The translations under genes and the position numbers were made by a program. A stretch of 35,149 nt of DNA from Alphaproteobacteria bacterium CG_4_9_14_3_um_filter_47_13 (GTDB taxonomy: Bacteria > Pseudomonadota > Alphaproteobacteria > Micavibrionales > Micavibrionaceae), in the NCBI GenBank assembly GCA_002789675.1, contig PFTR01000117.1, forward strand, positions 3,613-38,761, written 5' to 3'. Shown here one piece after another: positions 2,354 to 27,285 of this stretch; position 1 is the first letter of the stretch, and each line of letters begins with the position of its first letter. The notes under the pieces are model-generated. The model made no database searches. It was not told where the DNA came from and was given only the letters and a program-made list of their open reading frames with translations.

Positions 2354-2364
2354 AAGGAATAAAA

Positions 2365-3465
2365 ATGACTCATAAACTTGTTCTGCTTCCCGGAGACGGC
2401 ATTGGCCCCGAGGTAATGGCGGAGGTCAGAAAAATTATTGACTGGCTATCGCAAAATACGCAGACGGATTTTGACATTACCGAAGATGATATTGGCGGTG
2501 CGGCTTATGACCGTTATGGCGTTCCGCTTGATGAGGGAACGCTGGAAAAGTGCCGAGCGGCTGACGCTGTGATTATGGGGGCTGTCGGTGGCCCGAAGTG
2601 GGATCATGTCGATTACACTCTCCGTCCGGAAGCGGGGCTTTTAAAATTGCGCAAGGAGCTTGATCTGTTTGCCAATCTTCGTCCGGCGCTTGTGTTCGAT
2701 GCGCTGATTGATGCCAGCACACTTAAGCCAGACATTATCAGAGGTCTTGATATTATGATCGTCCGCGAACTTACGGGCGGGGTGTATTTTGGCGAACCAC
2801 GCGGGATTGAGGATCTTGGAAATGGAGAGCGTCGCGGGTTTAACACGCAGGTTTATACAACGAAAGAAATCCGCCGGATCGGGCGCGTGGCATTTGAACT
2901 GGCGCGTAAGCGCGGCAATAAAGTATGCTCTGCTGAAAAGGCCAATGTCATGGAGTCGGGAAAATTATGGCGCGAGGAAATTACGAAATTGCATGAGGAA
3001 GATTATCAGGATGTGATGCTGACCCATATGTATGCCGATAATTGCGCGATGCAGTTGCTGCGTAATCCACGACAGTTTGATGTGATTGTCACCGATAATC
3101 TGTTTGGTGACATTCTTTCTGATGAGGCCTCGATGCTGACCGGGAGTCTCGGGATGCTGCCTTCTGCTGCGCTGGGTGCGAAGAAAGGGCAGGGGCTTTA
3201 TGAGCCTGTCCATGGCTCTGCCCCCGATATTGCCGGACAGGGCAAGGCGAATCCGCTGGCAACAATTCTGAGTTTCTCTATGGCGCTGCGCTATTCCCTG
3301 GATGAGGCGGCGCTGGCAGATCATATTGAACAGGCGGTGCAGACTGTCCTCAATCAGGGTTTGCGTACAGCCGACATTATGGAGCAGGGTTGTATAGAGC
3401 TTTCTACGGATGCCATGGGTAACGCGCTTGTAAAAAAACTGGCGGAGGCTATATCAGTCGTATGA
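2365..3465 (+). CDS. leuB: 3-isopropylmalate dehydrogenase
   Basis: [24 protein letters not shown]...GAVGGPKWD...[15 protein letters not shown]...[28 protein letters not shown] at 2365 preceded by a GAAGGA SD. Confidence 0.97.
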
Positions 3466-6728: not shown

Positions 6729-7286
6729 TTATTCTTTGGAAGATGTTTCTTCTGTGGTTGCTTCAGGTGCTGCTTTCTTTGCTTTGACCTTTTTGCCTTT
6801 TTCTTTTTTAGGCGCAGCCTTTTTCTCTTCCCGGGCTTTTTCTTTTCTGGCTTTGGCTTCTTTTTTCGCGATTTTTCTCGCTTCTTTTTCCTCCGCCATC
6901 AGCGCACTGGCTTCTTGCAGACCATGTCCGGTTGTCCGTTCGGAAATACGGGCAGATTTGCCACGAAGATCGCGCAGATAATAAAGTTTGGCGCGTCTGA
7001 CCGAGCCGCGACGGACGAGATCAATACTGTCAATACGGGGGCTGAAAAGCGGAAAAACCCGCTCTACGCCTTCGCCATAGCTGATTTTACGCACGGTAAA
7101 GCTGGCATTGATATCACTGCCTGATCTGGCAATACAGACACCTTCATAAGCCTGGATACGCTCGCGGTCACCCTCACGAATTTTGACGTTGACACAGACG
7201 GTATCACCGACTGAAAACGCGGGTATTTTAGAATTCTGTTTTAATTCTTCGAGCTGCTTTGCTTCGAATTTCTGTAGAATATTCAT
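6729..7286 (-). CDS. rplS: 50S ribosomal protein L19 with a long Lys/Ala/Glu-rich C-terminal extension
   Basis: [114 protein letters not shown] is L19; the low-complexity tail runs to residue 185. Confidence 0.97.
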
Positions 7287-7417
7287 TTTTTCGTCCTTTT
7301 CCCTTTATTGTGGAACCCGATAATCAGGCCATTGCCCGGCGGTTCGCTTGTCTTTTTTCATGGGGTGTCTTTATAGACGCGCCTTTTTACAGTGTTAGAG
7401 CAAGGAATGCAAGGGTT

Positions 7418-8125
7418 TTATTCTTTTTTTACAAGTAAGTCGGGACGACGCAGGCGCGTGATCTCCTGGGTCTGTTTTCGCCGCCACTCTGCAATTTTTG
7501 CGTGATTGCCGGAGGTTAGTGTTTCCGGCACGCTATAGTTTTTTCCGCTTGCATCTGTCCAGACTGCCGGACGGGTATAATGGGGGTATTCCAGTAATCC
7601 ACCGGAAACAGAAGAAAAACTTTCCTCCTGCGCGGTGTTCACATTGCCCATGACCCCGGGCAGCAGGCGGATACAGGCATCCATGAGGATCAGCGCTGCC
7701 GGTTCGCCTCCGGACAGAACGTAATCACCAACAGAGATTTCCTCGAATGCGCAGGCATCAAGAATGCGCTGGTCAACACCTTCATAGCGCCCACATAACA
7801 GGGTCAGAGAGGGTTCATGACTTAACTCCTGCACCAGTTCCTGCGTTAGCGGTTTACCACGGGGGGAGAGGTAAATCAGGCGTCCGGGCGTTTTAAGAGA
7901 TAACAGCGCTTTTTCGATGATATCCGCACGCATCACCATTCCTGCCCCGCCGCCATAGGGGGTATCATCAACGGTTTTGTGAATGTCCTGTGCAAAATCA
8001 CGGATATTCACGGTATGGTAATCCCACAGCCCGTTTTCCCGCGCTTTTCCGGCAAGAGAATGACCGAGAAACCCGGGAAACATTTCCGGAAAGAGGGTAA
8101 GAAGAGTGACTTGAAATTTTTCCAT
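7418..8125 (-). CDS. trmD: tRNA (guanine-N1)-methyltransferase
   Basis: FQVTLLTLFPEMFPGFLGHSLAGKA...DDTPYGGGAGMVMRADII...LSPRGKPLTQ...LCGRYEGVDQR...SVGDYVLSGGEPAALI. Confidence 0.98.
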   Translation of the reverse strand: MEKFQVTLLTLFPEMFPGFLGHSLAGKARENGLWDYHTVNIRDFAQDIHKTVDDTPYGGGAGMVMRADIIEKALLSLKTPGRLIYLSPRGKPLTQELVQELSHEPSLTLLCGRYEGVDQRILDACAFEEISVGDYVLSGGEPAALILMDACIRLLPGVMGNVNTAQEESFSSVSGGLLEYPHYTRPAVWTDASGKNYSVPETLTSGNHAKIAEWRRKQTQEITRLRRPDLLVKKE

Positions 8126-8146
8126 ATAATATTGACTATAAGAGCT

Positions 8147-8656
8147 TTATTCCGGCGCAACAATCTGTACCGTTCCTTCTGTAATATCTACGGAAGGAAC
8201 GTTTTTTTTGGTGAAGGGCAGGTAGTAGGGAGTGCCTGCAGGAGGGCGGATTTCAAGCAGGGTTCCGGCACCGAAATTATCAACGGCAATGATGGTTCCT
8301 GCATCCGCGCCGTCCTTTGTAAGGGCTTTGAGACCAATGAGATCTTCGACATAAAATTCATCTTCCTCCTCAAGGGCGGGCAGCGCGGCACGGTCAAGCC
8401 AGAGTTTTGTACCGCGCAGTTTTTCAGCCTCTGTACGGTCGGAAATGCCTTCTATCCCGGCAAGCCAGTATTTTCCCATTGAATTCTTCATACGCAGATC
8501 AAGTGTGTCATGACCCGTTTCTGATGTCCAGAGTAACCCGTTTAACATTTGCGGATCATCGCCATAGCAATGAATTTTGACAAGTCCCTTGACACCATGT
8601 GCGGTGGCAATGACACCAAGACAAATACGCTTTTCTATCGTTTCTGTTGTCTGCAT
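8147..8656 (-). CDS. rimM: Ribosome maturation factor RimM
   Basis: RICLGVIATAHGVKGLVKIHCYGDDP...FYVEDLIGLKALTKDGADAGTIIAVDNFGAGTLLEIRPP...YYLPFTKKNVPSVDI. Confidence 0.95.
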   Translation of the reverse strand: MQTTETIEKRICLGVIATAHGVKGLVKIHCYGDDPQMLNGLLWTSETGHDTLDLRMKNSMGKYWLAGIEGISDRTEAEKLRGTKLWLDRAALPALEEEDEFYVEDLIGLKALTKDGADAGTIIAVDNFGAGTLLEIRPPAGTPYYLPFTKKNVPSVDITEGTVQIVAPE

Positions 8657-8693
8657 GTTACCGGACTGTTCAGGGGTTGTGCTTCATCAGAAG

Positions 8694-8727
8694 AATCTCT
8701 CTCCCTTTTAATAAAGGAAGAGAGATT
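8694..8727 (-). terminator. Hairpin between rpsP and rimM (terminator or attenuator)
   Basis: Inverted repeat AATCTCTCTCCCTTTTAATAAAGGAAGAGAGATT in the rpsP-rimM intergenic gap; minus-strand continuation is TCTTCTGATG, so only a weak U-tract. Confidence 0.45.
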
Positions 8728-8733
8728 AATGTT

Positions 8734-9180
8734 TTATTCCGCAGATGTTTCTGCGGGCGCTTCTTCTGCTTTGGCTTCTTCAGCAGCGGGAGCTTCTTCT
8801 TTTGGTGCTGCGGCGGCAGCTTTGGCTGCTTCTTCTGCAGCCAGTTTTTTGCCTTCTTTTTCTTTGATACGCTCTACAGCTTTATGGCCGGGAGCAGACT
8901 TCTTCGGTGTTTCATTGATTTTTGGCATGTCGGCAAGACCGGCTTTTGCCAGAAACAAATGAACACGTGTCGAGGGTTCAGCCCCTTGCTCGAGCCAGTA
9001 TTTCACGCGCTCGGCATTAAGTACAACGCGGTTTTCATCATCATTGGCAAGAAGCGGGTTATAAGTGCCCAGTCTTTCGACATAGCGCCCATCACGTGCC
9101 ATACGCTTGTCCGCAACCACGATCCGGTAGAAAGGGCGGCCTTTGCGTCCGCTTCTTGATAGTCTCATTGATAGTGCCAT
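8734..9180 (-). CDS. rpsP: 30S ribosomal protein S16 with an Ala/Glu-rich C-terminal extension
   Basis: MALSMRLSRSGRKGRPFYRIVVADKRMARDGRYVERLGTYNPLLANDDENRVVLNAERVKYWLEQGAEPSTRVHLFLAKAG; tail ...EEAAKAAAAAPKEEAPAAEEAKAEEAPAETSAE. Confidence 0.97.
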   Translation of the reverse strand: MALSMRLSRSGRKGRPFYRIVVADKRMARDGRYVERLGTYNPLLANDDENRVVLNAERVKYWLEQGAEPSTRVHLFLAKAGLADMPKINETPKKSAPGHKAVERIKEKEGKKLAAEEAAKAAAAAPKEEAPAAEEAKAEEAPAETSAE

Positions 9181-9286
9181 TTTTCGTTCTCCTTTTATAT
9201 GTTTTGTTTGTCAGTTTGTCTTATTGGATCAATGGATAACCGGATGTTTAGAATATTGTCTGTCATCCAGTCATCAAGTCATCCAA

Positions 9287-10852
9287 CTATCGGTGTTTCT
9301 TTTTTTTCCGATCCTTTTTCTTGCCGCCATGTGAAGGGAGGTTCAGCCCGCTTATACCACCCATGCCAGGCATCATGCCACTGCCGCCCTGCAAAAAGGG
9401 ATTGCTTCCCAGGGGGCTGCCGGGCGCACCTTCCTTTTCAAGAGCCGCCATGTCTGTTGCCAGAGACTTTGGATCCATACTCTGCATCAGCATTTCGGCA
9501 TCGTCGTTACCCATCATGTTTTTCATCATCCCCATCATGCCGCCCATGCCCATTTTCTTGATACGTTTCATTACAGTCTGCATTTGCTGCAATTGTTTGA
9601 TGAGTTTGTTAAGGTCATTCACACTTCTGCCAGATCCGGCGGCAATGCGTTTTCTGCGGCTGGCATTCATGATTTGTGGTTTGGCACGCTCTTCCGGTGT
9701 CATGGACAGGATCATGGCTTCATGGTGCTTGATGACATCATCGCTCATGCCGGCTTCTTCCATTTGCGCAGCAATTTTGCCAAGACCCGGCATCATTTTC
9801 ATGATGCTGCCCGCGCCACCCATTTTGCCGATCTGCCGCATTTGTTGCAGCAAATCATTAAAATCAAGCTGGCCTTTGCTGAATTTTCGCGCCAGTTTTT
9901 CGGCCTCGGCACGGTCAACGGTTTCAACCGCTTTTTCAACAAGGCTGACAACATCGCCCATGCCCAGAATCCGTCCGGCCATACGATCAGGATAAAAGGC
10001 TTCCAGCGCATCCGTTTTCTCGCCAACGCCGAGAAGTTTGATCGGCTTCCCGGTCACGGCCTTCATCGACATGGCTGCGCCGCCACGGGAATCGCCATCC
10101 ACACGGGTAAGGACAACGCCTGTAATGCCAATTTTCTCGTTAAATTTCTGCGCTGTATTGACAGCATCCTGACCCGTCATGGCATCGGCAACCAGAAGCG
10201 TTTCTACGGGGCGGGCAGCGGCCTTGACATCGGCAACTTCCTGCATAAGGGCTTCGTCAATCGACAGGCGGCCTGCCGTATCCAGAATCACAAGATCAAA
10301 GCCGCCTTTGCGAGCTTCATCAAGGGCGCGGCCTGTAATTTGTACCGCGTTCTGGCCTTCAATCACCGGAAGTGTTGCAATACCGGTCTGCACCCCTAGC
10401 TGGCGGAGCTGTTCCTGTGCTGCCGGACGGTGAATATCAAGGCTGGCCATCAGGACTTTTTGTTTATGCTTTTCCTGTAAAAAGCGGGCAATTTTAGCAG
10501 TGCTGGTGGTTTTTCCGGAGCCCTGCAGTCCGACCATCAGATAGGCGCAGGGCGGAGACGCAAATTGCAGTTTGCTGTCATCTTCCTTGCCGCCGAGTAG
10601 TTCAGTCATCGCATCATTGACGATTTTGACGACTTGCTGTGCCGGGTTGACACCTTTAATAATGTTCTGGCCGACGGCCTGCTCTTTGACAGTCGCAACA
10701 AACTGTTTAACAACAGGAAGTGCAACATCGGCTTCAAGCAACGCCACGCGGATTTCGCGCATGGCCTCGTCAACATCGGATTCCTTCAAAGCGCCTTTAC
10801 CGCGCAATGTCGTGAAAATACCGCCTAATCTGTCACTGAGGGAGTTAAACAT
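9287..10852 (-). CDS. ffh: Signal recognition particle protein
   Basis: MFNSLSDRLGGIFTTLRGKGALKESDVDEAMREIRVALLEADVAL...VGLQGSGKTTSTAKIA...DTAGRLSIDEALM...TRVDGDSRGGAA, then a Met-rich M-domain. Confidence 0.98.
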   Translation of the reverse strand: MFNSLSDRLGGIFTTLRGKGALKESDVDEAMREIRVALLEADVALPVVKQFVATVKEQAVGQNIIKGVNPAQQVVKIVNDAMTELLGGKEDDSKLQFASPPCAYLMVGLQGSGKTTSTAKIARFLQEKHKQKVLMASLDIHRPAAQEQLRQLGVQTGIATLPVIEGQNAVQITGRALDEARKGGFDLVILDTAGRLSIDEALMQEVADVKAAARPVETLLVADAMTGQDAVNTAQKFNEKIGITGVVLTRVDGDSRGGAAMSMKAVTGKPIKLLGVGEKTDALEAFYPDRMAGRILGMGDVVSLVEKAVETVDRAEAEKLARKFSKGQLDFNDLLQQMRQIGKMGGAGSIMKMMPGLGKIAAQMEEAGMSDDVIKHHEAMILSMTPEERAKPQIMNASRRKRIAAGSGRSVNDLNKLIKQLQQMQTVMKRIKKMGMGGMMGMMKNMMGNDDAEMLMQSMDPKSLATDMAALEKEGAPGSPLGSNPFLQGGSGMMPGMGGISGLNLPSHGGKKKDRKKKKHR

Positions 10853-11844: not shown

Positions 11845-12483
11845 TTATAGAGACGGCGCTTTTTCAGAGGGTCGCGGAGATCGTTCTTCTTTACTCATCT
11901 CTTTTTGTGCCTGTTTCAAGCAGTCAAGCGGAGAAAGTACTTTCCCCGCATAAAGGGTTTTCGCGCATAATTCGGCATAACGCAGGGTCATTTTTACATT
12001 TTCCGGTGTGATGGCCCAAGTATCTATTGGCTCGCTTATTGTTCCATCCTGATGGATGACAGGGCAATAGAGTTTTAAAATTTGCATATCCTGCATTCTA
12101 ACATCGTGGGTTCCTGTGATGCCGACAAGTAAGGAACTCTGATTGTTTTTTACGTTGTTAAGATCATCGCAAATTATTATGGTAATAATATCGGTATTCG
12201 GTATCATTGCATGATATGTTTCCCGGGTGTAAGAAACACAGGCAGATGTCATTCTCCCCGGCGGCGCATAGAAACTGTAGCAATCTCCATTATGATGATC
12301 CGGATTCATGTTAAGTCTTTCCATGACCCGGGAGTGGGACATGCGATCCATTCTAAAATCATTATGTTTACTTTTATGAAGCCCCAGTTGCGTGAAGAGA
12401 GCCTCCTTATTAACAGACACTAAAACCGGATCTGTGTAGTTGATGCTTTTAAAGAAATCTGTCAGGGACTTTATAAAACCCAT
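11845..12483 (-). CDS. Hypothetical protein, paralog of the adjacent 12508-13140 ORF
   Basis: 212-aa ORF; shared landmarks with the neighbour: 'CYSFYAPPGRMTSACVSYTRETY' vs 'CKSYFAEPENASAANVSFTQDSY', and 'ITPENVKMTLRYAELCAKTLY' vs 'VTPENLALGLRFAALCADAVY'. Confidence 0.75.
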   Translation of the reverse strand: MGFIKSLTDFFKSINYTDPVLVSVNKEALFTQLGLHKSKHNDFRMDRMSHSRVMERLNMNPDHHNGDCYSFYAPPGRMTSACVSYTRETYHAMIPNTDIITIIICDDLNNVKNNQSSLLVGITGTHDVRMQDMQILKLYCPVIHQDGTISEPIDTWAITPENVKMTLRYAELCAKTLYAGKVLSPLDCLKQAQKEMSKEERSPRPSEKAPSL

Positions 12484-12507
12484 TACTGGCGCTCTTTTAA
12501 AATGCTT

Positions 12508-13140
12508 TTACAGGTTTCTGGTAGATGCAGGTTCTTTTACTGCCGCCTGGTTCTGATTTTTTGCCTTTTGCATCAGCTCTCCAAGACGGATTTCGGTATT
12601 CGTATATACTGCGTCTGCACATAGAGCTGCAAAACGAAGGCCAAGAGCTAGATTTTCAGGTGTTACCTCAACTTTTCCGGGCTTTAGAACTATATTAAAG
12701 TTATCAATATTCGGCATAATAATTTGTGAGACTTTCATTTGGTCACTGTTATCAGTGTAAATTCCGGAAATAGCAAATGCCACACGATTTTTCCCCCAGT
12801 TGCGATCATCGGAGGTCGAGTTGCTATCTAACTCAAAAGGCTTGTCCAGGTTATCGCGAATGCTTAAAACAAAACGCTTTTTTCCAAAATAACTATCCTG
12901 CGTAAAGGAAACATTTGCCGCACTGGCATTCTCCGGTTCTGCGAAATAGCTTTTGCAGGGACCTTCGGGGCTTTCTGCGGAAACTCCAGCATCTCTCATG
13001 ACAATAACGTGGTATTCTGTATTATTTTTAAATCCCTCATGACGGGTTACACCGAGTTGATCCAGAATACTGTTTTTGCTCATAAGAACGCCCGTTGCTT
13101 CTTTGTTTAGAAGGTTCTTGATTGAATTTATTATATTCAT
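12508..13140 (-). CDS. Hypothetical protein, paralog of the adjacent 11845-12483 ORF
   Basis: 210-aa ORF with the same orientation and layout as its neighbour; MNIINSIKNLLNKEATGVLMSKNSILDQLGVTRHEG.... Confidence 0.75.
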   Translation of the reverse strand: MNIINSIKNLLNKEATGVLMSKNSILDQLGVTRHEGFKNNTEYHVIVMRDAGVSAESPEGPCKSYFAEPENASAANVSFTQDSYFGKKRFVLSIRDNLDKPFELDSNSTSDDRNWGKNRVAFAISGIYTDNSDQMKVSQIIMPNIDNFNIVLKPGKVEVTPENLALGLRFAALCADAVYTNTEIRLGELMQKAKNQNQAAVKEPASTRNL

Positions 13141-14136: not shown

Positions 14137-15237
14137 ATGGGATTTAATTGCGGAATTGTCGGGTTGCCGAATGTTGGAAAATCAACGCTTTTTAATGCTT
14201 TGACGGCAACAGCCGCAGCACAGGCCGAAAACTTTCCTTTTTGTACGATCGAGCCGAATATCGGGCGTGTTGCCGTTCCCGATGGCCGTCTGGATCAGCT
14301 TGCAGTGCTGGCAAAATCGGTCAAAACTGTTCCGGCGCAGCTTGAATTTGTTGATATTGCCGGACTGGTCAGAGGCGCAAGCAAGGGGGAGGGACTGGGT
14401 AACCAGTTTCTGGCCAATATCCGGGAGACCGATGCGATTATCCATGTGCTGCGCTGTTTTGAGGATGGGGATATTGTCCATGTCGAAGGCTCGGTTGATC
14501 CGCTGCGCGATGCGGAAACGATTGAAACGGAACTGATGCTGGCGGATATCGAAAGCCTTGGTAAACAGATTGAAAATATCGCACGGAAAACGAAATCCGG
14601 CGATAAGGAATTGAAAGCGCAGCATGAATTTATGCTCAAAATCAAGGAAGCTCTGGATTCTGGCAAGGCTGCGCGCACGGTGGATGTCTCCGAAGATCAG
14701 GCGCAGACCTTCAAATTATTGCAGCTTTTAACCTCCAAACCGATTCTTTATGCCTGTAATGTAAATGAATCCGAGGCGGCCACAGGCAATGAATGGACGA
14801 AGAAAGTCGCGGCGATGGCCGCAGCGCAGAACGCGCAGCATGTAGTGATTTGTGCCAAAATAGAATCCGAGATTGCCGGACTGGAAACAGCGGAAGAAAA
14901 GCAGGAGTTTCTGGAAGCCATGGGTCTTTCTGAACCGGGTTTGAACCGGATCATTCGGGTCGGTTATCAGCTACTCGGCCTGCAGACCTATTTTACTGTC
15001 GGCCCCAAGGAAACCCGTGCCTGGACTCTGCGCATCGGTGCCAAAGCCCCCGAAGCAGCCGGATGCATCCATTCCGATTTTGAAAAAGGCTTTATCAAAG
15101 CCGAGGTCATTGCCTTTGAAGACTATGTCACTCTCGGCGGCGAACAAGCCTGTAAAGACGCCGGAAAAATGCGTCAGGAAGGCAAAAGCTATGTTGTTGC
15201 GGATGGGGATATTATTTTGTTCCGGTTTAACGTTTAA
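14137..15237 (+). CDS. ychF: Redox-regulated ATPase/GTPase YchF
   Basis: [49 protein letters not shown]...[38 protein letters not shown]...[16 protein letters not shown]...[18 protein letters not shown]. Confidence 0.99.
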
Positions 15238-15240: not shown

Positions 15241-15350
15241 GATTTAGTCATTTCAGGACATTTCACGAAGTCTCATAACAGCAAAAAGCACCTGATTTTA
15301 AAAGATTATTTGTCTTTCTAAGAATCATCTTCTATCCTGTCATCTCATAG

Positions 15351-15408
15351 AAAACCGGGTATAGCACCGGGTACAACGTAAAAATACCCGGTTTCAAAAC
15401 CGGGTATA
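15351..15408. promoter_or_regulatory. Cluster of AACCGGGTAyA motifs upstream of the integrase (possible integrase arm, excisionase or repressor sites)
   Basis: AAAACCGGGTATA, CACCGGGTACAA and the inverted repeat TACCCGGTTT-CA-AAACCGGGTA (15385-15406). Related motifs occur at the right end (24417-24440). Confidence 0.55.
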
Positions 15409-15425
15409 ATAGGCAGGAGACGGAG

Positions 15426-16697
15426 ATGCTCACAGAAACCCAATGCAGAGGCGCAAAACCCAAGGACAAGCCTTACAGGCTGGCAGACGGCAAGGGGCTG
15501 TATCTGGAGGTTAAGCCCAACGGCACAAAGGCATGGCGCTATCGCTTTGAGCTTTTTCATGAGGGGAAGCCCAAGGAAAGCATGTTTGCCATCGGCGATT
15601 ATGTTTACGTTACCGGCAAGGAATCTGAGGAAGAAGCACAAATCCGCCGTAATGGGCTGCGCTTTACATCGGCAGAAGCGCGTAAAGAACGTGATAAGGC
15701 GAGGGCGCTGGTCAAGCAGGGGATCAATCCGGCCCATAACCGCCAGCTTGATAAAATCAAAAGGGAAAACGAGTTTACCAATACCTTTGAAGCCGTGGGG
15801 CGTAAATGGATCACTCTGCGGGACTGGGAAGAAATTACCAAAAAACGGCGGCTTGATATGCTGGAGCGGGTTGTATTTCCGCATATTGGCAAGCTGCCGG
15901 TGCGTCAGATTATCCCCGCGCACATTCTTGACGTTCTCAAAAAAGCCGATGAAAAGAACGGCCCTTCCGTCAAGGACGAAGCCAAGCGCACCATGTCGGC
16001 GATTTTCGAGTTTGCGATTGCGAACCTGCTGGCGGAAACAGATCCGGTTTATCCCGTCCGCAAGGCGCTTCCGCCAAATAAAACCCAGCACAAGCGGCCA
16101 TTGGCTGCTGAGGAAATCGGCGAACTTCTGCGCGATCTGGCCAAGTATGACAGAAACATTCAAGTCGTTTCGGCCTTCAAGCTCATGTGGCTAACATTAT
16201 GCCGTCCGAACGAGATTGTCGGCGCACGATGGGAGGAAATCGATCTTGAGGCGGGCGTGTGGCACATACCCGCTGAACGGATGAAAAAGCGCAAAAAGCA
16301 TGATGTGCCTCTGCCGAGGCAGGCCGTAGAGGTGCTGGAAGGGATAAAAAATTTTACAGGACGCTATCAGCACGTTTTTCCGCACAGGGACAAGCGCAAT
16401 GAAGCTATGACGGACAATGCTTTCCGTCAGGCGCTCAAGAATATTGGCTGGTCTGGCCGCTATAGCCCTCATGCGACCCGCACGACCGGCAGCACTCATC
16501 TTAACGAAATGGGCTTTCATGCCGACTGGATCGAGCGTCAGCTTGCCCATACGGAGCCGAACGCTGTACGCCGGACGTATAATCACGCTGACCATCTCGA
16601 AGATCGTAAGAAAATGATGCAGCAATGGGCCGATTATCTGGATGCTGTTGCCAACAGCGGGAATGTTATCGCAGGAAACTTTAAAAAGAGCGCATGA
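15426..16697 (+). CDS. Tyrosine recombinase/integrase, P4 type with DUF4102-like N-terminal arm domain
   Basis: MLTETQCRGAKPKDKPYRLADGKGLYLEVKPNGTKAWRYRFEL (arm domain); LTLCRPNEIVGARWEEID, HATRTTGSTHLNEMGFHADWIERQLAHTEPNAVRRTYNHADHLEDRKKMMQQWADYLD (catalytic R, H-x-x-R, H and Y context). Confidence 0.96.
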   Translation: MLTETQCRGAKPKDKPYRLADGKGLYLEVKPNGTKAWRYRFELFHEGKPKESMFAIGDYVYVTGKESEEEAQIRRNGLRFTSAEARKERDKARALVKQGINPAHNRQLDKIKRENEFTNTFEAVGRKWITLRDWEEITKKRRLDMLERVVFPHIGKLPVRQIIPAHILDVLKKADEKNGPSVKDEAKRTMSAIFEFAIANLLAETDPVYPVRKALPPNKTQHKRPLAAEEIGELLRDLAKYDRNIQVVSAFKLMWLTLCRPNEIVGARWEEIDLEAGVWHIPAERMKKRKKHDVPLPRQAVEVLEGIKNFTGRYQHVFPHRDKRNEAMTDNAFRQALKNIGWSGRYSPHATRTTGSTHLNEMGFHADWIERQLAHTEPNAVRRTYNHADHLEDRKKMMQQWADYLDAVANSGNVIAGNFKKSA

Positions 16698-17547: not shown

Positions 17548-17793
17548 ATGAAAGAAAATGAAACAGACCGGAAGAGAGGCGAGAGCAATTTCTTGGGCAA
17601 GTTGCCTGCCGATGGGTATGTGAGGCTATCGGAATTGATCCCAAACCCCATTCCATTTTCACCCGCTACCCTGTGGCGGAAGGTTAAGGACGGCACTTTT
17701 CCGGCTCCCGTCAAACTTTCCGAGCGCGTGACAGCATGGCGTGTGGAAGATGTCCGTGCGTGGATGCAGGCGCTTTCGCATGACAGGGTGTAA
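17548..17793 (+). CDS. AlpA-family helix-turn-helix regulator
   Basis: YVRLSELIPNPIPFSPATLWRKVKDGTFPAPVKLSERVTAWRVEDVRAWMQAL, the AlpA/excisionase-type wHTH pattern. Confidence 0.88.
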   Translation: MKENETDRKRGESNFLGKLPADGYVRLSELIPNPIPFSPATLWRKVKDGTFPAPVKLSERVTAWRVEDVRAWMQALSHDRV

Positions 17794-17795
17794 GC

Positions 17796-18731
17796 ATGGA
17801 ACCCGGACAAAAAGAAAGCCCCGCTGCGAACGGGGCTGAGAAATTTACACGCCATCACCGTACCAATTCCCGGGCATTTCCACAAGATATAGCTGTGGCA
17901 TTCAAAGCAGCACTGGATAAAGCGGGCCTGCCCACGAAAGACAAAATCACAGCGGGTGGCAAGATGCATCGTTTTACAGTGGAGGGCGACAAGCCGGGAT
18001 CGAAAAACGGCTGGTATATCCTTTATGGTGATAGCCTGCCTGCCGGTGCATATGGATGCTGGAAACGGGGCATATCGGAAACATGGTGCTTGAAGCCTGA
18101 CCAGCAGATGACGGCGGCAGAGCGGGTAGAGTTTTCCCGCCGCATGATAGAGGCCCGCAAAGCCCGCGAGGCGGAAGAAGAGGCGCGGCGCAGAGCGGCA
18201 CGGGAGAAAGCAGCGGCGATCTGGCAGGCCGCGCCCCCGGCCCCTGACAATCACCCCTATCTCGCGGCAAAGGGCGTTCGCAATCACGGCCTGCGCCAGC
18301 ACAACAGGGCGCTGGTTATTCCGCTGCGGGATAGTTACGGAATCCTTCACTCTTTGCAATTCATTGACGGCACGGGAAACAAGCGGTTCCTGTCCGGCGG
18401 ACGGATACAGGGCTGCTATTTTGCGATAGGAAGCCCCATAGAATCCCTCTGTATCGCGGAAGGGTATGCTACTGCCGCCAGCATAAATGAATCCACGCAC
18501 TTGCCTGTGGCCGTGGCATTCAACTGCGGGAACCTGCTGCCAGTGGCACAGGCGCTGCGGGCGAAATTTAAGACTATTGAGATTATTCTCTGCGCGGATA
18601 ACGACACTCGCACACCGGGCAATCCCGGCCTAACAAAGGCAATGGAAGCGGCTGCCGCCGTTGGCGCAAGACTGGCCGTTCCGTCCTGTCATGGCGATTT
18701 TAACGATCTATACAGGGGCGCAGGACAATGA
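17796..18731 (+). CDS. Toprim-domain primase of mobile-element type
   Basis: DNHPYLAAKGVRNHGLRQHNRALVIPLRDSYGILHSLQFIDGTGNKRFLSGGRIQGCYFAIG...LCIAEGYATAASINEST...IILCADNDTRTPGNPGLTKAMEAAAAV (Toprim E and DxD). Confidence 0.9.
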   Translation: MEPGQKESPAANGAEKFTRHHRTNSRAFPQDIAVAFKAALDKAGLPTKDKITAGGKMHRFTVEGDKPGSKNGWYILYGDSLPAGAYGCWKRGISETWCLKPDQQMTAAERVEFSRRMIEARKAREAEEEARRRAAREKAAAIWQAAPPAPDNHPYLAAKGVRNHGLRQHNRALVIPLRDSYGILHSLQFIDGTGNKRFLSGGRIQGCYFAIGSPIESLCIAEGYATAASINESTHLPVAVAFNCGNLLPVAQALRAKFKTIEIILCADNDTRTPGNPGLTKAMEAAAAVGARLAVPSCHGDFNDLYRGAGQ

Positions 18732-20200
18732 CCGATAATCAGAACCCTGACGCGGTACGGGATGCCATCAATGCCGCCGCGCCGGTGGAAGAAACAATTT
18801 CCGAAGCCGTTGCAAGATTATCGGCATTGCCGCCGCTGGAGTATGAAAGGGTGCGAAAAGCCGAAGCAGAAAAGCTAGGCATTGACCGTGTGACTGTTCT
18901 GGATAGAGAGGTGGAGAATGTCCGCCGCCCTGCCCAGACAGAAAACGGCCCTGCGGAAATGTTCCCTGCTATCGAGCCATGTTCTGAAGCCGTTGACGGC
19001 GCGGCCTTGCTGGAAGAGATAGCGGAAACCATCCGGCGCTTTATCGTATGCGATCCTGAAACCGTTACGGCGGCGACACTCTGGATCGTCTTTACCTGGC
19101 TTATAGACCGCGTACAGGTTGCGCCGCTGGCCGTTATCACGGCACCGGAAAAGCGTTGCGGTAAATCGCAGTTGCTTGACCTGATCGGCAGGCTTTCACG
19201 CCGCCCGCTGGTAGCGTCAAATATTTCACCGGCTGCAATATTCAGGGTGATCGAAGCCCATGCCCCCACACTTTTGATAGATGAGGCCGATGCCTTCCTG
19301 AAGGACAATGAAGAAGCGCGGGGCATTCTAAATTCCGGCCATACCCGGCAATCCGCCTATGTCATCCGGGTTGTAGGGGAAGACCATATCCCTACGCAAT
19401 TCAGCACATGGGGAGCCAAAGCCATATCAGGAATTGGCGTGCTGGCCGATACGCTCATGGATAGGGCTGTTGTTCTGGAACTGCGCCGCAAACTGCCCCA
19501 TGAAAATGTACAAAGGCTGCGCCATGCCGACCCAGCTGATTTTCAACGCCTGACTTCCATGCTGGCGCGATATTCCGAAGATACGGGACGGATGACGGAA
19601 GCGGCCCGTCCTCTTCTGCCAGACTCCCTAAATGACAGGGCGCAAGACAACTGGGAGCCGTTACTTGCGATTGCTGACAATGCTGGCGGCAACTGGCCAC
19701 AGCTGGCAAGAGAAGCGGCATTGAAAATTTCAGGTATCGAGCAGGAATCGTCTTCCCTGACTGCCGAATTACTGGCGGATATTCGGGAAATTTTTGAAAT
19801 AAAACGAGTGGAAAGACTTTCGACAGTAGACTTGCTACAGGAATTAAATGTCGATGATGTAAAGCCATGGGCAACATATAACAGGGGCAAGCCCATGAAC
19901 CCCCGGCAACTGGCGAAGCGGCTAGGAGAATACAGAATAAAACCGCAGACCATCCGCATGGGCACCGGCACGGTGAAAGGCTTTCAGAAAGCATGGTTTG
20001 ACGATGCTTTCACGCGCTACCTGTCACCCCCTTCCAGCCCTTTCCTCAATTCATCCGTAACATCCGGCACATCATTGAAAAATAATGATAATTCTCGGCT
20101 TTCTATCCGTAACAGCGAAGAAAATGTTACCGATGCAAAAGGCCATAGTGCCTTGAATAATAAGGATTGTTACGGCGTTACGGATGCAGAGGTGTTTTGA
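18728..20200 (+). CDS. DUF3631-like ATPase, probably replication associated
   Basis: APLAVITAPEKRCGKSQLLDLIGRLSRRPLVASNISPAAIFRVIEAHAPTLLIDEADAFLKDNEEARGILNSGHTRQSAYVIRVVGEDHIPTQFSTWGAKAISGIG. ATGA overlap with the primase gene. Confidence 0.87.
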   Translation: MTDNQNPDAVRDAINAAAPVEETISEAVARLSALPPLEYERVRKAEAEKLGIDRVTVLDREVENVRRPAQTENGPAEMFPAIEPCSEAVDGAALLEEIAETIRRFIVCDPETVTAATLWIVFTWLIDRVQVAPLAVITAPEKRCGKSQLLDLIGRLSRRPLVASNISPAAIFRVIEAHAPTLLIDEADAFLKDNEEARGILNSGHTRQSAYVIRVVGEDHIPTQFSTWGAKAISGIGVLADTLMDRAVVLELRRKLPHENVQRLRHADPADFQRLTSMLARYSEDTGRMTEAARPLLPDSLNDRAQDNWEPLLAIADNAGGNWPQLAREAALKISGIEQESSSLTAELLADIREIFEIKRVERLSTVDLLQELNVDDVKPWATYNRGKPMNPRQLAKRLGEYRIKPQTIRMGTGTVKGFQKAWFDDAFTRYLSPPSSPFLNSSVTSGTSLKNNDNSRLSIRNSEENVTDAKGHSALNNKDCYGVTDAEVF

Positions 20201-20469
20201 TGGAAGCGGGCATACTCATACAGGAAATCAAAACGCACGGACTGGATATTCAGGTCATAGACGGCAATCTGCATGTTCGGCCCCGCGACCGGATCACTGA
20301 AAGCATACGGCAGGCAATACAGGGACAGAAAAGGGCGCTGGTGGATTTTATCGAAGCCTATGAGGAACGCGCCGCGATCATGGAATTTGACGGCGGCATG
20401 TCGCGGCAGGAAGCAGAGGCAGAAGCTTTTAAAGATTGTGTGGCTCTGTGCGGAGAGTACAAACCATGA
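20200..20469 (+). CDS. Small protein resembling a TubC N-terminal docking domain
   Basis: MEAGILIQEIKTHGLDIQVIDGNLHVRPRDRITESIRQAIQGQKRALVDFIEAYEER follows the I..L...G......G.L.V.P...I....R..I...K..L pattern. ATG overlaps the upstream TGA. Confidence 0.65.
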   Translation: MEAGILIQEIKTHGLDIQVIDGNLHVRPRDRITESIRQAIQGQKRALVDFIEAYEERAAIMEFDGGMSRQEAEAEAFKDCVALCGEYKP

Positions 20470-21017
20470 CCGGGTCCGCCATATATCCGCAGTTTGAGGG
20501 GCTGAAACTCACGGCCAAGCAGCAAGAATTTGTTGTCCTCTATTGCCGTCCTGACATGGGTTTCAATGCCGCCCGTGCGTACCGGAAGGCTTACGGACTG
20601 AGTACAAAGGACTCTGAAAGCGCCAAGAGAAGCGCCAGCCGTTTGTTGACCAAAGTCCACGTTTCAACAGCCATTCACATTGAATGTTCGCGCCGCCTTG
20701 CCCTGCATGATGATATTGCGCGGCAGGTTATGGCTGAGTGGTACAAGATGATGACGCTGGATATTTTCTCAGTGCTGACCATAGAGGGAGGCGTCGTGAA
20801 GCTGAGGCCTTTAGAGGAAATCCCGCCTGTAGCCTTGAGTTGCATTAAAGAGCTACACAATACGCAGCAGGGTATCAGCGTGACCTTCATGGATAAACAC
20901 AAGGCTATGGAAAGCTTGGCGAAGGCCTTGGGAGTTTACAGCAGCAGCCATTCCCAGACTGGCAATGAGCCATACGAGGCACTTGTGGTGCGGCTGGCAC
21001 GTGAAAATCCCGAATAA
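20466..21017 (+). CDS. Phage terminase small subunit-like protein
   Basis: LTAKQQEFVVLYCRPDMGFNAARAYRKAYGLSTKDSESAKRSASRLLTKVHVSTAIHIECSRR...; typical TerS HTH region (LT.KQ..FV..Y.....N...AY..AY) and a C-terminal KALGVY segment. Confidence 0.85.
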   Translation: MTGSAIYPQFEGLKLTAKQQEFVVLYCRPDMGFNAARAYRKAYGLSTKDSESAKRSASRLLTKVHVSTAIHIECSRRLALHDDIARQVMAEWYKMMTLDIFSVLTIEGGVVKLRPLEEIPPVALSCIKELHNTQQGISVTFMDKHKAMESLAKALGVYSSSHSQTGNEPYEALVVRLARENPE

Positions 21018-22184: not shown

Positions 22185-22257
22185 GGGCTATTTTTTACCC
22201 TGCGCATTTACTATAATTTCTCACATTCAAGGGATAATTAGCTTGGGAGCAGCAAAA

Positions 22258-22722
22258 ATGGAAAAAGAGCAGGAAACCAAAAAGCCGACAAGCAAGATCA
22301 TGGGTATTGTCATGTTTCTCATCGTTGCCGCTATTTTCGTAGGGCCGAGGGTGATGCGGGAGCAAGGCGTTCCTTCTGCGGCAACCTTGTCCGGCGTGGA
22401 AGCGCTCAGAGAAAAGATCGGATCCGACAGGTTTGAAAGCCTGATGAAGGGAACCCTTCCGATAGGATATACCGGTATATGCGTGAAAGAGCATGGCGAA
22501 AATCCAGCACTTATGGCTGCGGCTCAGTCATACAACACCCGCAACCAAGCTAAAATGACCGCCATGCTGCAATCCATTGAAGCCAGTGGCGGGCTGACTG
22601 CCGATGAAAAAGAGGCCATCGATAAATACGCTTATTCGAGAGTGGTGGGGGACATTCACAATGGCCATATATCCTGTGACACCGTTGCCGACCGTATCAA
22701 TGGCGGCGAATGGGATTTTTGA
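22258..22722 (+). CDS. Hypothetical single-TM protein
   Basis: MEKEQETKKPTSKIMGIVMFLIVAAIFVGPRVMREQGVPSAATLSGVEALREKIGSDRFESLMKGTLPIGYTGIC... Confidence 0.65.
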   Translation: MEKEQETKKPTSKIMGIVMFLIVAAIFVGPRVMREQGVPSAATLSGVEALREKIGSDRFESLMKGTLPIGYTGICVKEHGENPALMAAAQSYNTRNQAKMTAMLQSIEASGGLTADEKEAIDKYAYSRVVGDIHNGHISCDTVADRINGGEWDF

Positions 22723-22729
22723 GCAGAGC

Positions 22730-23356
22730 ATGAGCAAAAAGATCGAAAATTCCAGCGCCATGCGGGATTTGTACTGCGACCTCATGGAAGAGATAAAGCG
22801 GCGGATAACGGTTGTCACGAATATAACGGCGGGCCTTCTTCCTCTTCCGCGCATTGTTGCCTATGAAATTTGCTATTTGCAACTTCGGATGGTTTGTGAA
22901 CTGATTGCGTTGTCGTGTCTGGCCGCGCATGGCGATCTGCCGGAGGCCAAAGGCAAAAAGCTCTCTAAAGCCTATAACGCCGATGAAATCATAAAGCAGT
23001 TGGAAAAACTGCACTCCAATTTTTATCCCATTCCCAGCCGCCAGATATGCAACGCTCAGACCGGACGCCCTGAAAGGGTGGAACCGATTACCCAAGGGTA
23101 CTTAAAAAAAGAGGATTTGCTGAGATTGTACGGCGAATGCGGCGATGTTCTGCACCGTGGCAATCTGCGCCATATCCTCAGCGGGAAGGAAAAAGAAATC
23201 AGTTTTGAAAAAATCAATGGGTGGGTACAGAGAATAACGACTCTGCTTAACCATCACCAAATCCAGCTTATCCGCGAGGATGAGATGTTCTGGATTTTGA
23301 TGCAGTCCGGTACGGACGGCAAGGTGCATGGAGCACTGATGAAAAAGGCGGCGTAA
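22730..23356 (+). CDS. Hypothetical protein upstream of the trypsin-like protease
   Basis: MSKKIENSSAMRDLYCDLMEEIKRRITVVTNI...YEICYLQLRMVCELIALSCLAAHGDLP...LLRLYGECGDVLHRGNLRHIL; ATG at 22730 is more likely than the track start at 22604, which overlaps the upstream CDS. Confidence 0.7.
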   Translation: MSKKIENSSAMRDLYCDLMEEIKRRITVVTNITAGLLPLPRIVAYEICYLQLRMVCELIALSCLAAHGDLPEAKGKKLSKAYNADEIIKQLEKLHSNFYPIPSRQICNAQTGRPERVEPITQGYLKKEDLLRLYGECGDVLHRGNLRHILSGKEKEISFEKINGWVQRITTLLNHHQIQLIREDEMFWILMQSGTDGKVHGALMKKAA

Positions 23357-23375
23357 ATGGCCTAAGGAGACAAAC

Positions 23376-24380
23376 ATGCCATTCCCGTATTTGCCAAGGG
23401 GCGGTGAGGATGAAACGTTGTTTCGGATTGATGATCCTTTCGGGTTGCGCTCTGTCATCATCCCTTTGTTTGCTATTGATAGAGAAACCGAAGAAATCAG
23501 TGGAATAGGGACTGCTTTCCGGGTTGATCCTTTTGGCACATATCTTACGGCTTATCATGTGCTGGAAAGCCGGGAGACGCGAAACTTTTTTAATAGCCCT
23601 GAGCTTGGGACTGTATTTGGTTTTTTTAGCCCCGGACTGGTTTTAGGAAGGCCGCCGATCCCGCGTGACAGCTTTGTTTTTCTACATGAAGCGGCAACGA
23701 TACGGGGAGAAAGGGAAAGCCCCTTGCTCCATCTGCCGAATGAAACAGTAAATGTCTTTGATTGTGCAAAGCTGATTTTTGATCCGCGCAGTCCAAAGGT
23801 GCAGCAGCATCGTGGGTTTTTGCCTTTGCAAGTTTATGGTGGCAACCCTCCCGCGATAGGGGATCGTGTCATGGCGGTAGGTTATCCCGGTGTTATGAAT
23901 GTGCAACATGTTCCTGAGGGCAATCTTGTTCATTTTACGGAGGGGTTGTTTGGTGCTGTAGGCACTATTACCGAGATATTGCCCCAAGGACGCGATAGGA
24001 CTAGGCCTTGGCCTACTTTTGTTGTTTCGTCCAAATGGCCCAGCGGTATCAGCGGCGGCCCTATTTTCAACCAAGATGGATATGTGATTGGCGTAGTTAG
24101 TTCCAGCGGTCATAATCCAGATGTTGACGAACTGACCGAAGGCTATGCCTTCTGGTTTCGACCATTGCCAGCGATGCGAGGATTTTTGCCTTCGGTTGAT
24201 ACGGATAATGAGGGATCGCTCCGAGTCTGGGGTGTGTTAAGACAAAATCCGTGGAGGTTGGCAGGAATTTTTGCTATTCGGGAACAGGCAGAGGCTTATA
24301 GAGCTGAGCTTGGCGCTGAGTATGAGGTTATTTTTGGCAGTAATCGTTTTGGGACGGATGATTTTGTATATTCTTCCTGA
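23376..24380 (+). CDS. Trypsin-like serine protease domain protein
   Basis: GIGTAFRVDPFGTYLTAYHVLESRE (His), NVFDCAKLIF (candidate Asp), SSKWPSGISGGPIFNQDGYVIGVVSSSG (GxSGGP Ser). No N-terminal signal sequence is apparent. Confidence 0.85.
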   Translation: MPFPYLPRGGEDETLFRIDDPFGLRSVIIPLFAIDRETEEISGIGTAFRVDPFGTYLTAYHVLESRETRNFFNSPELGTVFGFFSPGLVLGRPPIPRDSFVFLHEAATIRGERESPLLHLPNETVNVFDCAKLIFDPRSPKVQQHRGFLPLQVYGGNPPAIGDRVMAVGYPGVMNVQHVPEGNLVHFTEGLFGAVGTITEILPQGRDRTRPWPTFVVSSKWPSGISGGPIFNQDGYVIGVVSSSGHNPDVDELTEGYAFWFRPLPAMRGFLPSVDTDNEGSLRVWGVLRQNPWRLAGIFAIREQAEAYRAELGAEYEVIFGSNRFGTDDFVYSS

Positions 24381-24416
24381 TAAGATAGCCTCATGAAAAT
24401 TTATGGCAGCTCACAC

Positions 24417-24440
24417 AAAACCGTGTATAAAACCGGGTAC
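24417..24440. promoter_or_regulatory. Right-end copies of the AACCGGGTA-type motif
   Basis: AAAACCGTGTATAAAACCGGGTAC matches the motif family at 15351-15408. Confidence 0.5.
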
Positions 24441-24498
24441 AAAAGGAGTGATGCCCAAAATAATTGATTCAATATCAATTACTTAGATTCAAAATTCA

Positions 24499-24515
24499 GG
24501 TTTAACGTCTAACCG
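24499..24515. repeat. Candidate attR-like sequence
   Basis: GGTTTAACGTCTAACCG against GGTTTAACGTTTAAACC at the ychF 3' end (10 identical, one mismatch, then TAA). Confidence 0.5.
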
Positions 24516-24519
24516 TTTC

Positions 24520-27285
24520 CTATGCACTATAAACTGTTGGCAAAGGGCGGGTGTAGTTTTCCTGTGGTTGTGAAGAAGGGGTTGGCTGCTGCTCTTGTGC
24601 GGCAGGGGGGCAGGGGGCGGCTTTGTTTCCGAATTTTGTTGTCAGGTCATTTGTTTGGGTTGTGCTCTCTCTGGTTGAGGGTATAATTTTTGCGCTGACT
24701 TCTGCAAAGGCCTGAGTCCATTCTTCGGGGAGTGCCGTAATCGTTGTGTCGTTGGCGTAAGCGGAGATAATCTGCAGCAATTGCGGGTCATTGACGGAGA
24801 ATTCACTGATCGGTTTTGCGCCTATTTCATCGGCGATTCCGGCCAGTTTTATTTTTTCGTCATCGGACAGCTCACGGGTGAAATCCTCATCATGTAATCT
24901 GTGATAGGCAAGCGCCGCCTGCGTGATTGTGACTTTCCCGTCGACATGGTCAAAAGCAATGGCATTACCAAGCGTGACGGCTTGCCTGATGATTTGTGTT
25001 TCATCTGTCAGTGCTGTTACGGGGACAGCCATCCGGAACGGGTTATTAGAGTGAAAATCAGAGCCGTCATTGATGGAGATCGGCGCAGCAGATGGGTCAG
25101 ACTGTGATTCACCGATAGAAAGGGCGCTCAGACGCTCTGATTCAAGATCATTGAATTTTTCAAGGAAAGCGTCAAAACCTGCTTTTTCTTCCATAGAAAT
25201 GATCCCTGTCGCGGCTCTGAAATCTGTCAGGGCGCTCAGGCTTTTTTGGGCTGGGCGGTTTCTTAGCGATTCCAGAAGGGTTTCTACAGAGCTGATATTA
25301 ATTCCCGCCGTGGCGAGCATGTCTTTCTGCCGTAGAAAAAAACCGCCATGCTGTTCCAGCGTTTCCTGAAGGAATGCTTTTTGCTGCAGATCAATGATAA
25401 AGGCTTTATTACTGTGCTGCGCCTCCAGATCATTGAATTTTTCAAGAAACTGCGTCATATCTTGCCTGATCTGCGGCGGCAGGTTTCCTTGTTCAGCACT
25501 GAAATTGATATAAGAGGAGAATCCGTTTTGTACGGATTTCTCCCTTAGGGTGTCAGTGAAAGTCTGTGCTGATTCAATATTGATATCTGCGCTGGCGAGC
25601 ATGTCTTTTCGGGGCGCTAAAAACTGATTATACTGCTCAAGAAAATTCTGAGCCAGTGTAATCTGGAGTGCATTGATTTCAGAAGCAAAGGGCGCAGTAT
25701 TTTCCTCTATTGGCGCGACCGTCAGAGGAATTTCCTCGGATATGGTTGGGTCATTTTCAGGTTTGTTTTCCGCTTCAGGCGCGGGTTGTGGCGGTGACTC
25801 TCCAGCTTTGGGAACAATCCCTCTGGTGATGCTGTCATAGCTGGCCTGCATGGTCTGTTCGAGATTTGTCTGTCTATAAAGACGGTAACCGCCGCCATAC
25901 ATGCCGGTATAGAAATCCAGTGTGCTGGCGCGGCTTAGATCCTGATCTTCGCGACCATATAAAGCAGCCATTTCTTTTGAAACACCGCCATCATGTTCCG
26001 CAAGGGCGCGATCACGCAGCCAGCTTTCCATTTTGCTGATATCAGCCTGATAAGAGCCATGATTTTCATCAACGATGGATTGTTCGGAAACACCGCGCTC
26101 CTTATCTATTATAGCGCGCATATCAACGGCAGCACGGGCTGTCGCTGTCTGGCTATCGAGCGCGCCGCCTTCGGGGGACTGGTAATGTGTTATTTTCTGT
26201 TCTGCAATTTTCATGTAATTATCAACTGTGTCGGGAAGATCTTTACTTTTTCCTTCCCAGTTCTCGCGCAGAATTTTTAAGCCTTCTTCGCGGGTCACCG
26301 TTAATCCTTCATAGGTTTTTACTGCGTTATGAATGGCGTGAATTGCCTGTAATTCTTTGTCTATCTGTTGTCGTAAGGCCGGGTCATTCTGACCTTCCAT
26401 CTGCGTCTCAATGGCATCCTGAGCAGACAGACCCTGCTGTTTCATCGCGTCCCATGCCGCACGGCTTTGCGGACTGATTTCGGGAATGACGCGGCTTTTG
26501 ACAAAGTTATCAGCAAGATGTTCTGGTGTTGGCCTGATATTGGTAATATTTTTGCTGATTTCCTGAAGATGGGTAATCTGGCTTTCAAGAGGATTTCTTA
26601 ATTCTATCCGCTGTTTGATCGTGAATTCCTGCCCGTTATTGGCTTGTTGGTAAAGTGCGGCATATTCATCCAGATAATTGTCGATGATCTGATTGACGGT
26701 TAAAGCAGGGGTTTCCTGCATATTTTCCCAGATTTTGCGGGCATGAATATCATAGTTCCCATTGTTGAGAACAACATTATTCATGTAATATTTTTTATAA
26801 TCTTCCGAGGTTACCTCAGGAGCTTGCGCTGAAGTTGGTACGCTTTCCTGTGCAAATAAAGCCAGAAATCCTAATGTCTGTGAAAACCACTGCCCGCTAT
26901 TCCCCGCCGCTTCCGGCCTTTCGGCTTCGCGGGACTCCACATTGTATTTTTCAGGATCATACAGGCCAAGAACAGCCTGCATCATTAAAATGTCCGACGT
27001 ATCTGCCGCAGCAGGGTTGACAGAGATATCACGGGCTTTGTTTCTGATTGTTTCGGGATTATTTTGGATCGCGCCCTGAATGGCGCGGTAATCGGAAATG
27101 TTGTCAATATCACCGATTCTTTCCTGTAATGCGCCGGAGGCCAGATTATTCTGTTTAAGAAAGCCAAGACCTCTTTGCGCCATGCTTTTCTGGCCGTCTG
27201 TCAAAGCATCATCATCTTTGTCAGTCGCAGAGATGTGTGATTTATTTTTTATATTGCGCCCTGAGCCAAGGACGGAATCTGCCAT
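24520..27285 (-). CDS. Large hypothetical protein (921 aa) with an internal duplicated domain
   Basis: Long ORF with no recognised family. Repeat units '...RKDMLASADINIESAQTFTDTLREK...FLEKFNDLEAQHS' and '...QKDMLATAGINISSVETLLESLRNR...FLEKFNDLESERL'. Proline-rich linkers. Confidence 0.85.
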   Translation of the reverse strand: MADSVLGSGRNIKNKSHISATDKDDDALTDGQKSMAQRGLGFLKQNNLASGALQERIGDIDNISDYRAIQGAIQNNPETIRNKARDISVNPAAADTSDILMMQAVLGLYDPEKYNVESREAERPEAAGNSGQWFSQTLGFLALFAQESVPTSAQAPEVTSEDYKKYYMNNVVLNNGNYDIHARKIWENMQETPALTVNQIIDNYLDEYAALYQQANNGQEFTIKQRIELRNPLESQITHLQEISKNITNIRPTPEHLADNFVKSRVIPEISPQSRAAWDAMKQQGLSAQDAIETQMEGQNDPALRQQIDKELQAIHAIHNAVKTYEGLTVTREEGLKILRENWEGKSKDLPDTVDNYMKIAEQKITHYQSPEGGALDSQTATARAAVDMRAIIDKERGVSEQSIVDENHGSYQADISKMESWLRDRALAEHDGGVSKEMAALYGREDQDLSRASTLDFYTGMYGGGYRLYRQTNLEQTMQASYDSITRGIVPKAGESPPQPAPEAENKPENDPTISEEIPLTVAPIEENTAPFASEINALQITLAQNFLEQYNQFLAPRKDMLASADINIESAQTFTDTLREKSVQNGFSSYINFSAEQGNLPPQIRQDMTQFLEKFNDLEAQHSNKAFIIDLQQKAFLQETLEQHGGFFLRQKDMLATAGINISSVETLLESLRNRPAQKSLSALTDFRAATGIISMEEKAGFDAFLEKFNDLESERLSALSIGESQSDPSAAPISINDGSDFHSNNPFRMAVPVTALTDETQIIRQAVTLGNAIAFDHVDGKVTITQAALAYHRLHDEDFTRELSDDEKIKLAGIADEIGAKPISEFSVNDPQLLQIISAYANDTTITALPEEWTQAFAEVSAKIIPSTRESTTQTNDLTTKFGNKAAPCPPAAQEQQPTPSSQPQENYTRPLPTVYSA

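Follow-up and report, generated by a model that had tools for sequence, protein, structure and literature searches.

The window, i.e., the whole stretch of 35,149 nt that was analyzed (contig PFTR01000117.1 of Alphaproteobacteria bacterium CG_4_9_14_3_um_filter_47_13), harbors at the 3′ end of ychF an element of 9.3 kb, the final two genes of which encode a 208-aa protein and a trypsin-like protease. The features recognized in and at the borders of this element were as follows:

15220–15237, plus strand: attL core, the last 18 nt of ychF with its stop codon included; a repeat of 24495–24512 at 89%
15338–15413, plus strand: left arm-type repeats of the integrase, AACCGGGTA; conserved in G389, G339 and G342
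15426–16697, plus strand: tyrosine integrase; Pfam Arm-DNA-bind_3 and Phage_integrase
17548–17793, plus strand: AlpA-type regulator; Pfam Phage_AlpA, 1.5e-7
17796–18731, plus strand: Toprim primase; Pfam Toprim_3, 3.4e-13; phrog_2249 (DNA primase), 1.8e-66
18728–20200, plus strand: DUF3631 (helicase-like) replication protein; Pfam, 1e-50
20436–21017, plus strand: terminase small subunit; Pfam Terminase_2, 2.6e-19; phrog_51, 2.7e-17
22243–22722, plus strand: membrane-anchored protein of 159 aa that borders the cargo slot on the left; conserved, 86% identical in G342
22730–23356, plus strand: cargo gene 1, encoding a predicted helical protein of 208 aa from the phrog_13799 family; 5.6e-25
23376–24380, plus strand: cargo gene 2, 334-aa Trypsin_2 protease with a C-terminal phrog_4280 domain; Pfam, 1.5e-12; phrog_4280, 1.3e-20
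24404–24446, plus strand: right arm-type repeats of the AACCGGGTA type, from repeat comparison; also in relatives
24495–24512, plus strand: attR core, an imperfect repeat of the attL core

The two att cores were identical at 16 of 18 positions, and the arm repeats sit inside both element ends, with an 82% match between the stretches 15338–15376 and 24404–24442. Elements in G389, G339 and G342 have this core and these arm repeats at both ends, i.e., attachment-site repeats and arm sites recur in four genomes, which substantiates the right att-like site that the preliminary description of this DNA had proposed. In further relatives, G336 and G329 among them, ychF has the attL 18-mer at its end as well (18/18), but no arm repeats accompany it. 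PICIs and phage satellites are defined by an integrase, an alpA regulator, a replication module, sometimes terS, the absence of structural or lytic genes and a size of about 8–20 kb. Here, int, AlpA, primase, DUF3631 and Terminase_2 were found within 9.3 kb, no structural genes were recognized (the island proteins scanned gave no match to capsid or tail genes), and the 3′ end of ychF provides a specific att site with flanking direct repeats. Judged by this gene set, which is that of a phage satellite, we consider the element at ychF to be integrative and phage-satellite-like. With SaPI/PICI/P4-type satellites it shares integrase, AlpA, primase/rep, TerS and the lack of structural genes, but it differs from them in its ychF site and its unrelated cargo, and its mobilization by a helper is putative. 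Directly beyond the right att site, a 921-aa protein is encoded at 24520–27285 (minus strand), for which Pfam gave no significant match; elsewhere in the window, two neighboring genes at 11845–13140 (minus strand), encoding 212 and 210 aa, resemble tandem paralogs.

A sister element was found at the same ychF site in a genome of another genus (G342), with identities to the window of 81% for the integrase, 67% for the primase and 86% for the gene preceding the cassette. DNA homology between both elements stopped at window position 22724, at the end of the gene at 22243–22722, and resumed at 24382, 2 nt past the protease stop codon, from where it continued through attR at 86%. Between these breakpoints, G342 has six different genes, none of which (0/6) matched a window protein; this alternative cargo (L105, G342:C9, 5430–10020) comprises partial TauD-like, weakly DUF3644-like and zinc-finger-like genes, and also two similar-looking genes without an assigned family (6970–7581 and 7656–8297). 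Because the homology breaks off and resumes around them, the 208-aa gene and the protease gene exactly fill an exchangeable slot. The satellite-like element thus ends, on its right, in a slot for exchangeable cargo that spans positions 22725–24381, and the earlier proposal of cargo at the island end was borne out with gene-precise borders. This organization resembles that of the SaPI 3′ end, the accessory genes of PICIs and the int-psu hotspot of P4, in which a swappable block lies next to a conserved core, beside an att end. Satellites with accessory or defense genes at fixed slots have been documented (PMC6092414, PMC8628076).

Besides the window's own genome, five from its family have the element or its remains at ychF (G342, G389, G339, G294 and G357). 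G389 (also L044, a MAG of Alphaproteobacteria), a genome of the window's genus, carries a mini-element of 1.6 kb (L043, G389:C118, about 8452–10030) with no integrase and with both arm-repeat sets, organized as attL and arms, an 80-aa gene, a protease 90% identical to that of the window, and arms with attR; its match to the window begins at the protease start codon. It is possibly a non-autonomous, trans-mobilized cassette. In G339 (L032, G339:C256, 11865–12698), the integrase (residues 1 to about 300) continues in frame into the protease (from residue 213 onward). The two share a few bases at the junction (AGGC/GGCC), and the integrase already has an in-frame stop (TAA), a configuration that we read as a decayed element whose integrase–protease fusion was formed by deletion. 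Only the left arms remain in G294, and in G357 an integrase of 80% identity lies beside ychF at a contig end. In addition, a genome of another genus (G324) encodes a 208-aa homolog (56% identical) directly after ychF, with neither a protease nor recognizable arm repeats at that locus. As the relatives' genomes are draft assemblies, single junctions could be assembly errors, which is less likely for the G342 and G389 boundaries, these being long alignments.

Both open reading frames of the cassette were confirmed at 22730–23356 (208 aa) and 23376–24380 (334 aa), on the same strand and with a gap of 19 nt. Upstream, the first frame extends without a stop as far as an ATG at 22604 (250 aa); as the gene before it ends only at 22722, the start at 22730 was preferred. 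Matches to a promoter or terminator of the cassette's own were no more frequent than expected from shuffles.

The two genes had initially been regarded as a sensor–protease pair. Their common strand, short gap and shared slot would suit a dedicated two-gene defense system of the Hachiman/AVAST-like kind, with the 208-aa protein as sensor or pro-effector and the protease as effector or activator, and a protease with an upstream partner is a known defense logic (PMC12799240). This contrasted with the distribution of both genes. No trypsin-like gene was found near relatives of the 208-aa protein (0/16). Of these loci, the class scan contributed five, one of them the paralog in the genome that the window comes from, and the family scan two more; three lie on plasmids and six on viral contigs. 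Since the five class-scan loci had only 1.5 kb flanks, a distant partner could be missed there, an adjacent one not. Conversely, the 208-aa protein was absent near the protease relatives (0/8: two close and six distant homologs; several loci in the two comparisons had only 1.5 kb flanks), and the G389 protease is preceded by the unrelated 80-aa gene instead, whose product gave no match in Pfam and NCBIfam. Because the two genes do not co-occur elsewhere in the collections searched, an obligate sensor–protease pair was rejected, in keeping with the outcome that the preliminary description had itself named as contradicting its proposal. A two-gene defense system, the upstream member of which would come from a family that usually occurs as a single gene and without a match to an MBL or other nuclease, is thus highly improbable. 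From this distribution, the 208-aa gene and the protease gene are probably independent, exchangeable passengers.

The 208-aa protein matched phrog_13799 over nearly its whole length (E = 5.6e-25), and Pfam, PADLOC and NCBIfam gave no match; residues R53, E57 and H142 were invariant in the family alignment. Structure prediction, which had been suggested for both cassette proteins, worked for this one, with a helical AlphaFold2 model of mean pLDDT 81, and failed for the protease, whose model was poor (mean pLDDT 47, from a six-sequence alignment). Foldseek comparison of the helical model with PDB and BFVD yielded no significant fold match, and HEPN toxins (8yuf, 5yep, 7bxo) appeared only among the non-significant matches (E > 1). 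Single-sequence scans of viral contigs, with either the 208-aa protein or the protease, found nothing. Elsewhere in phrog_13799, the genes stand by themselves, on chromosomes, plasmids and viral contigs. The 208-aa protein would represent a separate accessory gene, found alone elsewhere. A second copy of the family in the window's own genome (L007, G000:C62; 31% identical) sits alone amid metabolic genes, and in G185 (L004, 1318–2610) a relative is fused behind a cysteine-rich, zinc-finger-like N-terminal half.

With regard to the protease, the 334-aa protein matched Trypsin_2 (PF13365) at residues 45–240 (E = 1.5e-12; 48.9 bits versus a cut-off of 27.6), the protease domain spanning residues ~20–260. 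The putative triad H61/D129/S226, with the serine in GISGGP, was invariant in an alignment of seven sequences of 26–90% identity to the window protein (alignment A1), so that the His, GxSGGP Ser and Asp pointed out beforehand form an intact predicted triad. Neither a signal peptide nor a transmembrane stretch was found in the protein, with maxima of 19-residue hydropathy of 1.19 overall and 1.03 within the first 45 residues, and a secreted protease was rejected on these grounds. Given an N-terminus without a hydrophobic stretch, cytoplasmic action is most likely, and the predicted intracellular location of the protease, already assumed in the preliminary description, was upheld as the most likely one. 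Comparison with the G389 protein gave dN 0.054 and dS 0.65 (dN/dS about 0.08), with similarly low ratios in both domains, i.e., the protease is under strong purifying selection.

Residues 274–333 of the same protein matched phrog_4280 (1.3e-20); by this match, a small phage-protein domain makes up the C-terminal part of a fusion with the protease. The last 60 residues are about 45–50% identical to the small phage proteins of this family (e.g., mEp237 43238–43459), which differ in being stand-alone: among the best 80 of 90 relatives in viral contigs, all (80/80) were separate ORFs of 64–96 aa. In annotated records, these relatives lie close to lysis or tail genes and are labelled hypothetical. 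A fold search with the domain gave weak matches to solved structures only, and its match to DUF7336 (0.003) stayed below the cut-off. The distant trypsin-like relatives in alignment A1 have no phrog_4280 domain, and the fusion has so far been found only in three ychF elements, the close homologs of the window protease being two only, that of G389 and the decayed fragment of G339.

Two other functions were weighed against these data. The protease could serve the life cycle of the element, e.g., by processing capsid or tail proteins of the helper, which would thereby be remodeled or interfered with; the phage-derived domain would then be the docking part. The protease gene lies downstream of terS-like and replication genes, and the C-terminal domain is typical of phages, where it is found near tail or lysis genes. 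However, the sister element of G342 has no protease, and that of the integrase-less G389 mini-element has been kept intact, which fits a host-beneficial cargo better than a core function and makes a life-cycle role rather doubtful. Alternatively, the protein could be a housekeeping-type or neutral passenger protease, involved in regulation or quality control, with no part in phage conflict. Trypsin_2 proteases are common, and the distant trypsin-like relatives are found singly at unremarkable chromosomal loci; that of G136, for instance, lies between ordinary metabolic genes. Against this stand the fusion to a phage domain, the presence of the protease only on these elements and its swap with other cargo, so we regard such a passenger as unlikely, too.

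Intracellular trypsin-like proteases take part in bacterial immunity in the nuclease–protease pairs of Hachiman and AVAST (PMC12799240) and in the CARD-NLR-like LypABC system (PMC13236601). The window protease resembles those of the protease–HamA, Avs1b and LmuA fusions and of CARD-NLR LypA/LypC in that it is trypsin-like and intracellular and belongs to a locus that is mobile and exchangeable, but these have an MBL nuclease, ATPase or NLR partner, in place of which the window protease has its phage-domain fusion. Beside it, no canonical partner (MBL nuclease, ATPase/NLR or reverse transcriptase) is encoded; PADLOC matched only via the generic trypsin domain, with no family beyond it, and the fused partner is phrog_4280 rather than HamA, Avs, LmuA or RT. 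As none of their partners is present, the protease falls outside the Hachiman/AVAST pairs and LypABC. An MBL-nuclease/trypsin pair of the Hachiman/AVAST/Lamassu/DRT type (PMC12799240) was likewise rejected, the 208-aa protein having no nuclease match.

The explanation that we favor, with a probability of roughly 0.45, is that the slot carries independent passengers and that its main cargo is an intracellular, phage-domain-fused protease that this domain would guide as an adaptor. The C-terminal domain would bind a phage component, and this binding would either switch the protease on or bring it to its substrate, whereupon the incoming or helper phage would be damaged or the host arrested. With moderate confidence, the likeliest single mechanism would be interference with phages or with the helper, in which the phage-derived domain guides the protease. 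The protease is a plausible, if unproven, effector of such interference, and the defense role initially suggested for the cassette is possible, though undemonstrated. An integrated-decoy effector, in which the captured phrog_4280 domain would be the bait or adaptor and phages engaging phrog_4280 would trigger or suffer proteolysis, is a considerably less probable proposal; if true, it would constitute a new architecture of intracellular protease immunity. If the fusion acts as bait or adaptor, proteases would be added to decoy-type immune logic. The unusual protease–phage-domain fusion would also open the function of a widespread small phage protein to testing. In addition, the satellite-like element offers a cleanly bounded cargo slot, in a family of Alphaproteobacteria remote from the common model hosts.

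A parallel in G292 lends plausibility to a role in conflict for proteases of this kind on such elements, and is not proof for that of the window. A satellite-like element there has a primase of 60% identity and, close to one of its ends, a trypsin-like protease of 28% identity, encoded about 20 bp after a gene that matches a PADLOC TIR effector model (9.5e-8). The protease and the TIR-like gene occupy 1115–3069 of this locus (L106, G292:C58), and perfect repeats of 15 nt lie near the element ends, at 142–156 and 9272–9286.
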